Shown piece after piece: positions 15,811 to 21,882 of a stretch of DNA of 64,000 nt; the first letter of the stretch is position 1; each line of letters opens with the position of its first letter. A program made the position numbers and the translations under genes. Origin of the DNA: an uncultured Lachnospiraceae bacterium (lineage in GTDB: Bacteria; Bacillota; Clostridia; Lachnospirales; Lachnospiraceae); assembly GCA_949472775.1 (NCBI GenBank), contig CASWVG010000011.1, forward strand, positions 1 through 64,000, given 5' to 3'. Below the pieces are notes generated by a model, which was given only the letters and a program-made list of their open reading frames with translations, was not told the origin of the DNA and ran no database searches.

Positions 15811-16872
15811 ATGAAATTGACTGATTCGGACAACGATAAAAAGTGGGAAGAGCAGGAGGAAACGGATCATATCCTGCAAAAGGCGCTGACCACGAAAGTA
15901 CTTCTCGGGGTGATTGCCGTTCTCCTGATTTTTATTCTCATTCTGCTCACCGTAGTTGTCAGCGGTCGTAAGAACCGGCAGGAAAAGACAGACAGTGATC
16001 TCCAACAGTCCATTACGGACTACGCCAGAGAACAGCAGGAGCTGGAGGAGCAGGTCCTCTCGGAGGAGGAGCAAAAACCTGCGGTGGACAAGCCTGTGCC
16101 TGAAGAGCCGGAAGAGGAAGAAGAGGAGGAGCCGGAAGAAGAACCGGTTTCCGCGGACAATGAAAAAACGGCGATTGTGGTGGATATCGAGGATGAGAAC
16201 GACGAGGCTTACACGAAAGAATTTATCTTAAAGGAAGCCTATCCTTATTTTGCGGATAACAAGCAGGACGCCATCTGGGATCTGGCCCATTTAAAGCGCT
16301 ACGTGAAGCTCTCCAAAGGACTTGAGGGCACCGGGGACTATTATTATCAGGGCGACGTGGACAGCGAGGGGAAACCCAACGGTACGGGGCTTGCCATCTA
16401 TGAAAAGAACAGCTACTATTTCGGGGAGTGGAGCCATGGGATGAGAAGTGGCAAAGGCACCTGGTTCCGCTTTTACATCAACCAGAAGAATAAGGCAAAC
16501 GCCATGGGCATTTATATGTCCCACAGCTACTCCGGGGAATGGGCTGATAATCTGCCAAACGGCCAGGGGGCGGAGCACTACGATGTGGATATCTCCAGAC
16601 TTGCGCCCACACAGGGCAGAATCCTGCAGAATGTGGTTGGAAATTTTACAAACGGGCTATATGACGGGGACATGTACGCCAATACCGTAGATTATACCGG
16701 AAATGTACAGGAGTGGGACGCCATTGCAACAGAGGGAGTCTTTACATTGTGGCGGGATATGAGCGCCATCGGCGAGTGCTCTGTGTGGCGTTACAGGGAC
16801 GACCATTCTGTCTGCCTCGACATAGACAAGTCGGAAAATAAAAATCAGGGCATCCGGGAACTGTTAAAGTGA
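15811..16872 (+). CDS. Single-pass membrane protein with MORN-like repeats
   Basis: 353 residues from ATG 15811, which follows AAGGAAAGG. A short cytoplasmic start is followed by one membrane segment (about residues 27-52), a Glu-rich acidic linker (about 70-130), and an extracellular region with MORN-like repeats (GDVDSEGKPNGTGLAIYE, FGEWSHGMRSGKGTW, YSGEWADNLPNGQGAEHY). MORN repeats are usually protein- or membrane-contact surfaces, and here they would sit outside the cell. The specific partner is unknown. The longer frame from 15745 has no ribosome site. Confidence 0.7.
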   Translation: MKLTDSDNDKKWEEQEETDHILQKALTTKVLLGVIAVLLIFILILLTVVVSGRKNRQEKTDSDLQQSITDYAREQQELEEQVLSEEEQKPAVDKPVPEEPEEEEEEEPEEEPVSADNEKTAIVVDIEDENDEAYTKEFILKEAYPYFADNKQDAIWDLAHLKRYVKLSKGLEGTGDYYYQGDVDSEGKPNGTGLAIYEKNSYYFGEWSHGMRSGKGTWFRFYINQKNKANAMGIYMSHSYSGEWADNLPNGQGAEHYDVDISRLAPTQGRILQNVVGNFTNGLYDGDMYANTVDYTGNVQEWDAIATEGVFTLWRDMSAIGECSVWRYRDDHSVCLDIDKSENKNQGIRELLK

Positions 16873-16960
16873 GGATCTTGTAGACTTTGTAATCGACTGT
16901 GATTGTTGATTATTCGGAACTGGAAATGAAAAACCATATTAGAATATAGCACTTAACTGC

Positions 16961-17013
16961 GAAGCAATAAGGCGCAGCCCTGGTGAATACAAGGGGTTGC
17001 GCCTTATTGCTTC
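16961..17013 (+). terminator. Very strong hairpin ending the MORN-gene unit
   Basis: A 16-bp perfect stem runs from GAAGCAATAAGGCGCA (16961-16976) to its complement at 16998-17013. It is extended by GCCC/GGGT pairing, with a 13-base loop. No long T run follows (only ATTATA), so intrinsic termination may be weak. It lies 53 bases before the -35 of the surface-protein promoter and would insulate it. The rest of the gap (16873-16960) shows nothing recognisable. Confidence 0.6.
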
Positions 17014-17065
17014 ATTATACAGAAAATTGTGGCAGCGTGAACTTTTGAAAGAGCTGGGTTACTGT

Positions 17066-17094
17066 TTGACAATTTGGGCGGGGGGGGGTAGAAT
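17066..17094 (+). promoter_or_regulatory. Surface-protein promoter with a poly-G spacer (possible phase variation)
   Basis: TTGACA (17066-17071) and TAGAAT (17089-17094) are separated by exactly 17 bases, the optimum for sigma-A. The spacer ends in nine consecutive G (17080-17088). Slipped-strand changes in that tract would make the spacer 16, 18 or more bases and change promoter strength. This is the known design of several phase-variable adhesin and porin promoters in other bacteria. Predicted start is near 17101, about 65 bases before the ATG. Confidence 0.7.
17080..17088 (+). repeat. Nine-G homopolymer in a promoter spacer
   Basis: G9, preceded by GGGC, so 12 of 13 consecutive bases are G. 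I noticed no other such G tract in this window. Homopolymers of this length are prone to slippage and to sequencing error, so read-level length counts matter. Confidence 0.85.
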
Positions 17095-17165
17095 ACATTT
17101 ATGTGTCGTTACGGGAGCGGCTTGTGACCGGTGGCGGGACGAAATCTTTTGAGGAGGAGAAACGA

Positions 17166-20100
17166 ATGGGTAGACACAAAAGTCTGTTTCAGGTAAAGAG
17201 GCTGCTTGCTGTAGCGCTTGCAGTGACAATGGCGGTGGTTTCGGCACCTGTTACGGCACAGGCGGCGCCAGGTGAAAATCCTGGGCAGGAAGTGATGACG
17301 GCAGGCACGGAGGATTCTTCCGCACAGGGTAATATGGAAGCGGGAGAAGAGGAGACGCAAAAGCCGTCCGGCGATGCGGCAGGGGATCCCGCTGACAGCG
17401 CGCAGGCAGGCGACGCGCAGCAGACACCCGAGGAAACAGGAAAGCAGGAAGATGTGCCTGCCGGGGAAGATTCGGAACCAGATGCCGGGAATCAGGAAGG
17501 AGATTCTGCGTTGGAGGATTCGGAATCAGAGACGGAAAAGCAGGAAGAGGACTCTGCGTTGGAGGATTCGGAATCAGAGACGGGAAAAAAGGAAGAGGAC
17601 TCTGCGTTGGAGGATTCGGAATCGGAGTCAGAAAAACAGGAAGAGACGCCGGATGCCGGGGATGTGAAAGAGGATGCAGCACAGGGAGAGGCGGAGGAAA
17701 CGTTGGAAGAGCCTGCCGTTGCGAAAGAGACACAAGTACTGCCTCTGACTTCTGCGGATGACATTGCGAGCGGCAGCTATGCGGAAAATGGCTCTGATGT
17801 TTCATGGGTGATTGATAAAGACGGAAAGCTGACGGTGACAGGAACCGGGGATTTCGCGGAATCTGGCAGAAGCTCGAATCGACCCAAAGTGCCTTGGTAC
17901 GAGTATGCGGCGCTGATCCTTTCCGCGGAAATTAAAGTAGCGGACATGACTGATGCGAGCTTTATGTTTTACAAGTGTGAAAATCTGAAAAGCATTGATG
18001 TAAGCGGTTTTAAAACCGACAGTGTAACGAAAATGGCCTCTATGCTTGACGGATGTAAAAACTTGACAGAGCTTAATGCGAGCGGCTTTGATACCAGTAA
18101 TGTGACGGATATGTCCCGTATGTTTTACGGGTGCACAAACTTGACAGAGCTCAATATAAGTGGCTTTGACACTGGCAATGTGACGAATATGTTATATATG
18201 TTTTGGGGGTGTTCCGGTCTGACAGCGCTTAATATAAGCAGTTTTGATACCAGCAGCGTGACGGACATGTCCTACATGTTTAGCGCACGCAGACTGAAAA
18301 AGCTTGATGTAAGCGGCTTTAAAACCAGTAACGTGACAAGAATGAAGTCTATGTTTTACGGGTGTTCTGATCTGGAAGAACTTGATGTAAGCGGCTTTGA
18401 CACTAGCAGCGTGACGGATATGAACCAAATGTTTTGCGGGTGTTCCAAATTGACGGAACTTGATGTAAGCAGCTTTGATACCAGTAGTGTGACAGACATG
18501 TCTAATATGTTTTACGGGTGTTCCAGTCTGACGGGGCTTAATGTAAGTGATTTTGTCACCAGTAGTGTAACGAAGATGTCCGGGATGTTTTACGATTGCC
18601 GATCTATGGCAAAAGTTGATGTAAGCGGCTTTGACACAAGCAGTGTGACGTATATGGCTGCTATGTTTGGTGGATGTTCCAATCTGACAGCGCTTGATAT
18701 AAACGGTTTTGATACCAGCAAGGTGACGGGTATGTCCAGTATGTTTTTCGAGTGTTCCGGTCTGACAGCGCTTGATGTAAGTGGCTTTGACACCAGTAGC
18801 GTGACGGATATGAATCAAATGTTTCGTGGGTGCTCTAACTTGGCAGAGCTTAATGTAAGCGGTTTTAAAACTTGTAACGTGACGGATATGTCTTCTATGT
18901 TTTTCGAGTGTTCCAGCTTGGCAGAGCTTAACTTAAGCGGTTTTGAGACCGACAGTGTGACGAGTATGCACTCCATGCTTGGCGGATGTGAGAGCTTGAG
19001 ATATCTGGATTTAAGCTGTGAAATGAACATAAAGGATAGAAATGGGGAAGAATTGGGGGAAGAGGATGAAATATATTATTTTTTTGATGGAACAAACCCA
19101 GAGATTATTTACACACCCCGTAACCTTAAAGCGAAAGTGATATTGTCGTCTGAAGATGGGGATGTCTGGTATGATTGTAATAGCAAAGCATATTCGGAAC
19201 TGCCGCGTAATTTGGAAACAAGTATTGTACTGACAAAAAATAAAACGGCACAGGTATCAACAATTGCAGCTATCAAATCCAAGACGGTTTACCGCTGTGG
19301 AGAACCATTGAATACAGATGATCTGGCGGTGTACTATTATGATGCCGAGGGTTCAGTTACACGTGTCACAGAAGGCTATACGACTAATGCAGCCGAAATA
19401 GATATGTCTGTTCCCGGAAGGAAGATACTGAAAGTAACCTATCAGAATATGTCCGCGGAAGTAGAAATTGAGATAAAAAGTATTGCGGAAACATTTTTCA
19501 CGGTCGCCTTTGAGGGAACCGGCAAAGACGACATAGCCGCGGGAACGCCGAAAGAGGTGAAAGAGGGCGAAAACTACATATTTACCTTGACAAAAGCCGA
19601 GGGATATACCTACACGGTGACGGCGGTTATGGGAACGCAGTCCGTAACGCCGGTTGCCGACGCGACAGGCGGTGTCTACACGATTGCCAATGTGACTGCC
19701 AACCTCGTGATTACGGTCAATAAGACGGCGGACCAGCCCCAGGAGCCCGGGAAAAAGATCTGTACGGTCACTTTTGAGGGAACCGGCAGGGACGATGTAG
19801 CTGCGGGGACGCCAAAAGAGGTGAAAGAGGGCGAAAACTATACATTTACCTTGATAAAAACCGAGGGATATGCCTACACTGTGACGGCGATTATGGGAAC
19901 ACAGTCCGTAACACCATCCGTGGATGCGACAGGAAACATCTACACGATTTCTGGCGTAACCGCTGACCTTATAATTACCATATCCAAAACGGCAGGCCAG
20001 ACCCCGGATGTGCCAGACCTGCCGGAGGAAGACAGAACTGGCTTGAAGATAAAATTCGTGCATGAGGAAGACGCGGAAAGCATTTATACCGGTAAGGCGA

Positions 20101-21656
20101 TCCAGCCGGAGATCAGAGTGTACTACAACGGCAAAATCCTCATCGCGGGTGTGGATTACACAGTAAAATACACCAATAATATCAAGGTTGGAACGGCTAA
20201 GATTAGCGTGACGGGGAAAGGTAATTTCAGCAAGGCAAACAACCAGACTACATTCCGGATCACAGAAAAAAATATTTCGGACAGTAATCTGACGCTCTGC
20301 GGTGCAGGTGCTGATGCCGATGGAAAAGAGACGGTAAAATTTGCAAATGCCTCCAGATTGGCCCCGGTCCTGTATTATAACAACAGTAAGCTTACCAATA
20401 AAGACTATGTTATAAAAACTGCAGACGGGAACGAAATAACAAACAAGAAGCTTGGCAGCAACGATAATAATACAGTCATTAAAATTGTGGGTAAGCCTGG
20501 TGGGAACTTTACAGGGAGCCGTGAAGTTACACTTCATGTGGTGGATAAGAAAGATCTGAAGAAGTTTGGGGTGACTGTTGATAAAAATAAAATAAACACG
20601 GTGACCTATAATGGAGGATCGCATTATATCCATGAAATAGGTGGAGCCCTAACGGTGACGGCCAAGGATGAAAACAAAACGAAGATGGAGTACGGAAAAG
20701 ATTTTGCCGTAGTCTACCAGAGTGACTTGGTAAGCGCCGGAACCAAGAAATTTACGGTTGTAGGTATGGGGCTTTATACAGGAAGTGTCAGTAAGTCCTA
20801 TACGGTGAAACCATCCAAAGATGAAACGCTGATGATTCAGTATGATGGCAGCGCTGTAAGCGGAAACAAAATAAATGGTTCGTTAACCTTTGCAAGTGCG
20901 GGAGTGACTATTGGAGACAAACTTACTATTACAGGCAGCGACGGTAGACTTCTGAGAGAGGGCAAGGACTATAAACTAACATACAGCGGGAATAAGAAAG
21001 CAAACCCGAATGCGAAGTGCACAGTGTCGTTCCTCGGTAATTATAAAGGACATAGCAAGATAACTTTGAGCTATGAAATCGGTAAGGCGGATTTAGGCAG
21101 GACAGATGTGGTCATAGCCGATCAGTTATATAAGAACAAGCCAGGAATCTATAAATCCGTCCCGTATGTGATCGAGGATAAGTTGGGATCCAACTCACTG
21201 TTAAAACCTTCCAACTATAAAATCACCTATTATACCCAGGATCCTACAAATAACGAAAATGCGTTGCAGATGAAGGGGGCAAACAAGGTCGGAGACGGGG
21301 ATACCGTGTGGGTAAAGCTGGAGGCGAAAGGAAATTATACAGGCACGAAAATTGTAAGTTATAAGGTCCGCAGTGCCCAGGATCTCTCCAGAGCCCGGAT
21401 AACGTTTCAAGATGCTGAGGGCAAAACGGTTAAGAATGCGGTGTATACAGGAAGCATGATCGCGGAAGGCCAGATGAAAGCGGTGGTCGATGGAGCTTTG
21501 GCGGAAAATGAGAAAGATGATATCGAAGTCATATACGTTGACAATATCAAAAAGGGAAAGGCGACAGTGATTGTAAAAGCGACGGGCAGAGACGGCTGTA
21601 AGTATGTAGGCAGCAAAAAGACAACATTTAGTATCGTAGCCCGTAATCTGAACTGA
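17166..21656 (+). CDS. Large secreted BspA-like leucine-rich repeat surface protein
   Basis: 1496 residues from ATG 17166, preceded by GAGGAGGAG. Signal peptide about residues 1-35 (Lys/Arg start, hydrophobic core, AQAAP). A low-complexity acidic stretch with three 16-residue repeats follows (about 113-160). From residue 274 there are 13 units of 26 residues (consensus LTELDVSGFDTSSVTDMSxM), the BspA-like/DUF285 leucine-rich repeat. Next come a bacterial Ig-like domain (about 700-775), two near-identical modules of about 80 residues (FEGTGKDDIAAGTPKEVKEG), and several beta-rich repeats to the end. There is no LPxTG motif or C-terminal membrane helix, so anchoring is unclear. BspA-like proteins in other bacteria bind host proteins and other bacteria. 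It stands alone between two strong hairpins. Confidence 0.88.
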   Translation: MGRHKSLFQVKRLLAVALAVTMAVVSAPVTAQAAPGENPGQEVMTAGTEDSSAQGNMEAGEEETQKPSGDAAGDPADSAQAGDAQQTPEETGKQEDVPAGEDSEPDAGNQEGDSALEDSESETEKQEEDSALEDSESETGKKEEDSALEDSESESEKQEETPDAGDVKEDAAQGEAEETLEEPAVAKETQVLPLTSADDIASGSYAENGSDVSWVIDKDGKLTVTGTGDFAESGRSSNRPKVPWYEYAALILSAEIKVADMTDASFMFYKCENLKSIDVSGFKTDSVTKMASMLDGCKNLTELNASGFDTSNVTDMSRMFYGCTNLTELNISGFDTGNVTNMLYMFWGCSGLTALNISSFDTSSVTDMSYMFSARRLKKLDVSGFKTSNVTRMKSMFYGCSDLEELDVSGFDTSSVTDMNQMFCGCSKLTELDVSSFDTSSVTDMSNMFYGCSSLTGLNVSDFVTSSVTKMSGMFYDCRSMAKVDVSGFDTSSVTYMAAMFGGCSNLTALDINGFDTSKVTGMSSMFFECSGLTALDVSGFDTSSVTDMNQMFRGCSNLAELNVSGFKTCNVTDMSSMFFECSSLAELNLSGFETDSVTSMHSMLGGCESLRYLDLSCEMNIKDRNGEELGEEDEIYYFFDGTNPEIIYTPRNLKAKVILSSEDGDVWYDCNSKAYSELPRNLETSIVLTKNKTAQVSTIAAIKSKTVYRCGEPLNTDDLAVYYYDAEGSVTRVTEGYTTNAAEIDMSVPGRKILKVTYQNMSAEVEIEIKSIAETFFTVAFEGTGKDDIAAGTPKEVKEGENYIFTLTKAEGYTYTVTAVMGTQSVTPVADATGGVYTIANVTANLVITVNKTADQPQEPGKKICTVTFEGTGRDDVAAGTPKEVKEGENYTFTLIKTEGYAYTVTAIMGTQSVTPSVDATGNIYTISGVTADLIITISKTAGQTPDVPDLPEEDRTGLKIKFVHEEDAESIYTGKAIQPEIRVYYNGKILIAGVDYTVKYTNNIKVGTAKISVTGKGNFSKANNQTTFRITEKNISDSNLTLCGAGADADGKETVKFANASRLAPVLYYNNSKLTNKDYVIKTADGNEITNKKLGSNDNNTVIKIVGKPGGNFTGSREVTLHVVDKKDLKKFGVTVDKNKINTVTYNGGSHYIHEIGGALTVTAKDENKTKMEYGKDFAVVYQSDLVSAGTKKFTVVGMGLYTGSVSKSYTVKPSKDETLMIQYDGSAVSGNKINGSLTFASAGVTIGDKLTITGSDGRLLREGKDYKLTYSGNKKANPNAKCTVSFLGNYKGHSKITLSYEIGKADLGRTDVVIADQLYKNKPGIYKSVPYVIEDKLGSNSLLKPSNYKITYYTQDPTNNENALQMKGANKVGDGDTVWVKLEAKGNYTGTKIVSYKVRSAQDLSRARITFQDAEGKTVKNAVYTGSMIAEGQMKAVVDGALAENEKDDIEVIYVDNIKKGKATVIVKATGRDGCKYVGSKKTTFSIVARNLN
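17502..17645 (+). repeat. Three tandem 48-bp coding repeats
   Basis: Units at 17502-17549, 17550-17597 and 17598-17645, nearly identical, each encoding a variant of DSALEDSESETEKQEE. They lie in the acidic linker after the signal peptide. Because 48 is a multiple of 3, copy-number change would lengthen or shorten the linker without a frameshift. Confidence 0.9.
17985..18995 (+). repeat. Thirteen tandem 78-bp leucine-rich-repeat units
   Basis: Unit starts recur every 78 bases (for example 17985, 18063, 18141) and run to 18995. The total of 1011 bases equals twelve 26-residue units and one 25-residue unit; the short one ends in FSARR instead of the usual YGCSx. The units remain similar at DNA level, so recombination could change their number in frame. 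Confidence 0.9.
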
Positions 21657-21669
21657 CAATGTTTAAAAT

Positions 21670-21710
21670 AAATCCCTGCGGAACCGGATTTTCCGGAACC
21701 GCAGGGATTT
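21670..21710 (+). terminator. Hairpin terminator after the surface protein
   Basis: AAATCCCTGCGG (21670-21681) / CCGCAGGGATTT (21699-21710), a perfect 12-bp stem extended by CCGG/CCGG beyond an AA/AA mismatch. The + strand T run is short (ATTTATG). On the - strand the stem is followed by TATTTTAAAC. It starts 14 bases after the stop codon. Confidence 0.65.
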
Positions 21711-21882
21711 ATGAAAATCAGAGTATTGGAAACGGGCCGTAACAGAGCGTCGGATTCCCATATTAAAGTGGTAAAAACAGCTATAAACAGTTGCAATTTA
21801 CATAAAATGATAATAAAATAAAACCGTACGGATGTTTTTGTGTGCAGGATTTCCAATTCGTAAGATAAGGAGGGTGTGGTTT

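Follow-up and report, generated by a model that had tools for sequence, protein, structure and literature searches.

The window analysed here, a stretch of 64,000 nucleotides at the start of contig CASWVG010000011.1 from an uncultured Lachnospiraceae bacterium (assembly GCA_949472775.1), carries a near-consensus promoter whose spacer ends in an uninterrupted run of nine G residues, and this raises the question of whether the run is a slippage-prone switch for the surface-protein gene that follows it, a fixed element of promoter structure, or an accident of sequence or assembly. A homopolymer becomes long enough to slip at about 8 or more bases, and the G9 tract falls within this range. The promoter, the gene and the hairpins on either side are arranged as follows.

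16961..17013, + strand: strong inverted repeat that separates the promoter from the MORN-repeat gene upstream and may be a terminator or insulator (fold of -40.1 kcal/mol, z -9.48)
17066..17071, + strand: -35 hexamer TTGACA, perfect consensus (sequence and promoter scan)
17072..17079, + strand: non-repeat part of the spacer, ATTTGGGC (sequence)
17080..17088, + strand: G9 homopolymer, the proposed slippage tract, which completes the 17-base spacer (sequence; recurrence elsewhere)
17089..17094, + strand: -10 hexamer TAGAAT, immediately next to the last G of the tract (sequence and promoter scan)
17151..17159, + strand: ribosome-binding site GAGGAGGAG (sequence)
17166..21656, + strand: gene of a secreted surface protein of 1496 amino acids (translation; PF03382, 7.5e-118; TIGR02167, 5.3e-130)
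21668..21712, + strand: hairpin just past the stop codon, candidate terminator without a T-run (-32.2 kcal/mol, z -8.57)

The letters and coordinates agree with the preliminary description, in which TTGACA and TAGAAT lie 17 bases apart and the last nine spacer bases are all G. The spacer (17072-17088) consists of ATTTGGGC followed by G9, which places a homopolymer between the -35 and -10 boxes, and the two hexamers match the consensus at 11 of 12 positions at 17-base spacing, with the proviso that assembled homopolymer lengths may be off by one base. GAGGAGGAG precedes the ATG at 17166 that opens the reading frame. The product combines a signal peptide and an acidic stretch of low complexity with DUF285/PARCEL leucine-rich repeats and a long C-terminal part; no LPXTG motif was seen by eye at the C-terminus. 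The 26-residue leucine-rich repeats score above the curated cut-offs of DUF285 (PF03382; 387.6 bits against a cut-off of 25) and of TIGR02167, 'PARCEL repeat-containing surface protein' (421.9 bits against a cut-off of 30), and the protein thus belongs to the DUF285/PARCEL group. The earlier label 'BspA-like' is loosely right, as there are also matches to LRR_5 of the BspA type, but DUF285 and TIGR02167 are the best families. Both the length and the signal peptide of the proposed single secreted product were borne out, and the single-gene unit is supported by the second strong hairpin (21668-21712), which follows the stop codon. The upstream hairpin (16961-17013) said to insulate the unit is real, but insulation by it is only plausible, because no T-run follows it and a terminator scan of positions 16850-17200 found none. 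The upstream neighbours of the gene are an oxidoreductase-type gene and the MORN-repeat gene, and downstream lie a 185-residue ORF and genes of the RlmH, YabP and YqfD families.

The arrangement recurs widely in the genus. The pattern TTGACAN{0,30}GGGGGGGGTA (TTGACA-N0-30-G8-TA) has 72 matches in 35 of the 77 genus genomes, against none for its reversed-pattern control in the same 77 genomes, and in 59 of the 72 matches the spacer is 16-20 bases long, though the pattern permits 8 to 38 (31 possible lengths). A looser pattern was found in 40 of the 77 genomes, and its reversed form in 10. That the promoter is a normal constitutive one with a G run by chance might be entertained for the window on the grounds that its genome (G000; 3.36 Mb in 119 contigs, 84.55% complete) holds 51 TTGACA-N17-TANAAT sites (3 matches when reversed), one of which might hold such a run. 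This explanation is very improbable and is already contradicted by the counts, with five such promoters in G000, 72 matches in the genus, no reversed controls and a marked bias in the genes downstream. A poly-C counterpart of the promoter was also considered and set aside as rare (4 matches against 72 for poly-G in the 77 genomes, plus one reversed match); one of the four coincides in part with a known G-run site read on the other strand. The habit is therefore strand-specific.

Similar promoters are also present outside the genus. A stricter pattern matched in 21 of 397 genomes of the family, three of these from the genus itself, with no control matches, and most of the -10 boxes in this sample are zero or one change from TATAAT, although the pattern required merely TANNNT. 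A scan of named records returned at least 114 stretches with similar promoters and supplies examples, not frequencies; among the matches listed, they occur in records titled Clostridia, Bacilli, Spirochaetaceae, Alphaproteobacteria and others. Poly-G spacer promoters in other phyla were noted in metagenome-assembled genomes (MAGs) titled Treponema sp. (L111, L160, L163), Lentisphaerae (L138), Alphaproteobacteria (L140) and Rickettsiales (L147), the last three of which hold two each within one stretch. Around one promoter, 600 bases of a genome of this genus (G067; L247) recur without change in a record titled 'uncultured Lachnospiraceae bacterium' (L152). Similarly, 600 identical bases surround another promoter in a second genome of this genus (G038; L067) and in a MAG titled 'Bacillus sp.' (L133), a title that is probably a mislabel.

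The genes that these promoters precede are strongly biased. The sites taken forward comprise 104 tracts with at least five of six matches to the -35 and at least four of six to the -10 consensus (84 from the genus and 20 from other genera, failing tracts being left uncounted), and the fetched set omits six loose-pattern sites that lie no more than 300 bases from the start of a contig. A crude hydrophobicity test classes the downstream ORF as signal-peptide-like at 58 of 78 genus sites, compared with 60 of 222 control ORFs (Fisher p 3e-13). The 78 are those of the 84 genus sites that have an ORF no more than 350 bases downstream, and they count orthologues several times; the control ORFs, of at least 150 residues, have a higher length floor. 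Among the matches listed in the named-record scan, 69 of 104 downstream ORFs are signal-peptide-like, compared with 91 of 392 controls. Both this bias and the window gene itself indicate that the promoters control surface or secreted products. Pfam searches of 88 downstream proteins from the genus and other genera, many of them shortened by the fetched length, found LRR_5 (11 proteins), DUF285 (8), DUF6709 (5) and a solute-binding family (4); the 88 were drawn from the 104 sites, leaving out those that lacked an ORF or a ribosome site, had the ORF more than 300 bases away or showed a repeated N-terminus. A signal-peptide type resembling KKLFQVKRILA is common to a number of the long downstream proteins.

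The genome of the window contains 20 runs of eight or more G residues, of which five are in promoter-spacer position, with spacers of 17 (the window), 18 (C7:85901), 18 (C17:31924), 19 (C52:5022) and 19 bases (C7:50113, where the -10 box lies two bases beyond the tract). Downstream of all five is an ORF with a signal peptide and a length of 1146 residues or more; in four cases it runs off the fetched sequence. Further tracts lie within the N-terminal coding part of secreted-protein genes at C39:24591 (L049), C43:3068 (L050), C68:1717 (L036), C67:249 (L035) and C62:80 (L033). The signal peptide is out of register with a frame of 1542 residues or more at the C39 locus and in frame at the C43 and C68 loci, and the C67 and C62 loci are cut by contig ends. 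These N-terminal coding tracts are probably translational switches alongside the promoter ones. The remaining runs include two in Shine-Dalgarno position, two at contig starts and others in various coding or intergenic places. The two contig starts (C82 and C97) are poly-G junk that looks like a sequencing artefact, and the accessible text of a study of Bifidobacterium breve describes Illumina reads in which G-tracts are followed by artefactual G repeats (PMC9187656). Both observations lend some substance to the view that miscalls created or lengthened the tract in the window. This view is nonetheless scarcely credible, given that the window tract is interior to a 68.9-kb contig with its flanks intact, and that the arrangement is conserved across species in separate assemblies, at promoter spacing and with no reversed counterparts.

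If the tract slips, its length should differ between relatives whose flanking sequence has changed little, and this is observed in the genus. The tracts in related promoters range from G7 to G11, and among 13 groups of orthologues and paralogues, more than one tract length occurs in 8 and a uniform length in 5. For example, in two cross-species pairs (L061/L228, with G10 and G11, and L225/L074, with G9 and G10), the tract is the sole indel in about 190 aligned bases. For the window promoter, no close direct orthologue was found and the comparison is with paralogues and diverged relatives, which share the stretch from around the -10 box to the signal peptide. Two similar poly-G promoters were also seen 1.4 kb apart in one genome (G071:C1:209316 and 210701; L259 and L260), with 90.7% identity over 43 bases. 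One of the uniform groups spans four species, all with G9 and a 19-base spacer, and such groups show less variation than free drift would give. A DUF6709 search that is independent of the tract was used instead of a neutrality p-value, because the original sites had been chosen for having a tract. Among its six matches, which score 55-60 bits, five short orthologues (G066, G068, G069, G071 and G073) retain the tract, as G7 once and G9 four times, with 65-90% pairwise identity around it, and the sixth, a 430-residue frame of other architecture in G015, has no run of six or more G residues in the approximately 150 bases viewed above the frame. Tract length and the rest of the spacer are weakly and not significantly anticorrelated (rho -0.18, p 0.19, 56 distinct strings).

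Tracts are also found at other loci of the DUF285 family. We viewed 25 such loci, one per genome, from 30 genomes with a match, and 4 of these have an upstream tract in a promoter-like position (one being the window and one having a poor -35). In another three loci the tract lies in the coding region, and all three have the signal peptide in one frame and the repeats in another. No tract was found in the other 18, in about five of which the 5' end is out of view.

The distribution of spacer lengths bears on the state of the switch. Ordinary promoters peak at 17 bases, both among exact TTGACA-TATAAT pairs in G000 (26 of 51 at 17, 7 at 16, 5 at 18 and 1 at 19) and among tract-free promoters in the fetched loci (18 of 57 at 17, in 635 kb with overlaps included). 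This upholds the prediction made earlier that the 17-base spacer of the window is of optimal length and corresponds to an ON state, with the amendment that it is a minority state among the genus copies, many of which are at 16 or 19. The tract promoters in the fetched loci have spacers of 19 (30 of 82), 16 (14), 18 (14) and 17 bases (8), and after group weighting the 71 counted comprise 20.4 at 19, 16.1 at 16, 13.8 at 18 and 9.0 at 17. The window copy is thus at the predicted optimum and most of its relatives are predicted to be off it, and the spread over 16-19 is as expected of putative switches in mixed states. The commonest spacer among tract promoters is 19, not 17, and therefore either most copies are weak or off, or the optimum of poly-G promoters is shifted to longer spacers.

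G runs have A-like geometry, and the tract might be a fixed structural spacer, in which a stiff A-like run suits a longer spacer of 18-19 bases, a regulator or a response to supercoiling, and no switching takes place. This would fit with 19 being not only the most frequent length but also common to members of several related groups, and with the rarity of ordinary 19-base promoters in G000, where the single such pair among 51 is itself a poly-G promoter. Such a spacer is, however, unlikely to be the explanation, as tract length differs in most of the groups (8 of 13), states of 16, 17 and 18 bases are common, and similar tracts are found within the coding frames of this protein family, where promoter geometry cannot apply.

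Because the arrangement recurs with differing numbers of G residues before many surface-protein genes of the genus, we consider it very probable that the promoter is phase-variable, such that slippage of the G run would alter the -35/-10 spacing and the expression of the surface protein. The phase-variable switch first proposed from the window alone thus gains support from comparison, namely from its presence in 35 of 77 genomes, the bias toward signal-peptide genes, the cross-species differences in tract length and the coding-frame tracts in the same family. In the mechanism we envisage, slipped-strand mispairing at replication would add or remove a base in the G run, which in turn would reset the -35/-10 spacing and hence the strength of a SigA-type promoter. 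In the 17-base state assembled here the surface protein would be made, and a 16- or 19-base state is predicted to give little or none of it. The window promoter would be one of five such elements in G000, beside the poly-G runs in the frames of other secreted proteins, and if these switch independently, a clonal population could display many surface combinations. The benefit may perhaps lie in evasion of immunity or phage, or in varied adhesion.

Promoters of this kind have precedents. In Neisseria meningitidis porA, a poly-G tract lies in the -35/-10 spacer and one-base changes alter transcription, according to the accessible text of PMC3899988 and PMC7864442. The same portions of the latter describe a poly-G tract between the -35 and -10 boxes of Treponema pallidum tp0126, an OmpW homologue, with optimal transcription at 17 bases, and a tract of 7-11 G residues, mostly 9, at tprL (PMC7864442). 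The position of the poly-G spacer in tp0126, and the tract range and commonest length in tprL, are, as far as described there, the same as those seen here. However, porA is a single gene for a Gram-negative porin and T. pallidum a spirochaete pathogen with outer-membrane proteins, whereas here several genes of a single genome have the same layout, and the setting is a Lachnospiraceae genus with secreted leucine-rich-repeat proteins. In Bifidobacterium breve UCC2003, slippage in coding G-tracts of sortase-pilus genes governs surface structures, and the accessible sections of that paper mention further promoter-spacer G-tracts in passing, without data (PMC9187656). Like the present genus, B. breve is a Gram-positive gut commensal, but it belongs to a different phylum and the tracts tested there, as far as those sections go, are coding. 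Invertible promoters of gut bacteria, which have been surveyed gut-wide, also bring about phase variation, by recombinase-driven inversion. Those of Clostridioides difficile, as presented in the accessible text of PMC9286219, are inverted by a recombinase, whereas homopolymer slippage is proposed here. The earlier statement that the mechanism is established in several Gram-negative genera holds for porA and has to be widened to a spirochaete (tp0126; PMC7864442) and to the passing mention in B. breve (PMC9187656), within the accessible text of these sources. That it is not well described in gut Clostridia agrees with our finding no account of switching by poly-G promoters in Lachnospiraceae in the accessible text of the open-licence PMC literature. 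Thus, the mechanism is already known from porA and tp0126, and what is unusual is the setting, the multi-gene array, and the fact that a single protein family carries tracts in promoters as well as in reading frames.

Slippage switches have mostly been studied in pathogens, and here several poly-G promoter switches appear to be present in some genomes of a commensal genus of Lachnospiraceae. We lean, with some reserve, toward a broader reading in which independent poly-G switches, in promoters and in frames of the same protein family, would give the whole genus a combinatorial surface coat, with most promoters off 17 (at 16, 18 or 19) and a minority ON; together with the occurrences in Spirochaetaceae, Bacilli and other largely host-associated lineages, this would make such switching a general commensal habit and not a speciality of pathogens. 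If true, a clonal gut population would be mixed in its surface proteins, with consequences for recognition by the immune system, for resistance to phage and for the persistence of strains.

Two other placements of G runs in G000 were noted. The G8 runs in Shine-Dalgarno position before a start codon (L048, C22:35377, and L034, C62:18668) possibly tune translation. A G10 run (L046, C3:50390) lies behind a pilin-like gene and before a gene that resembles one for a prepilin peptidase, and it follows an inverted repeat recognized by eye, without a clear -35 box.
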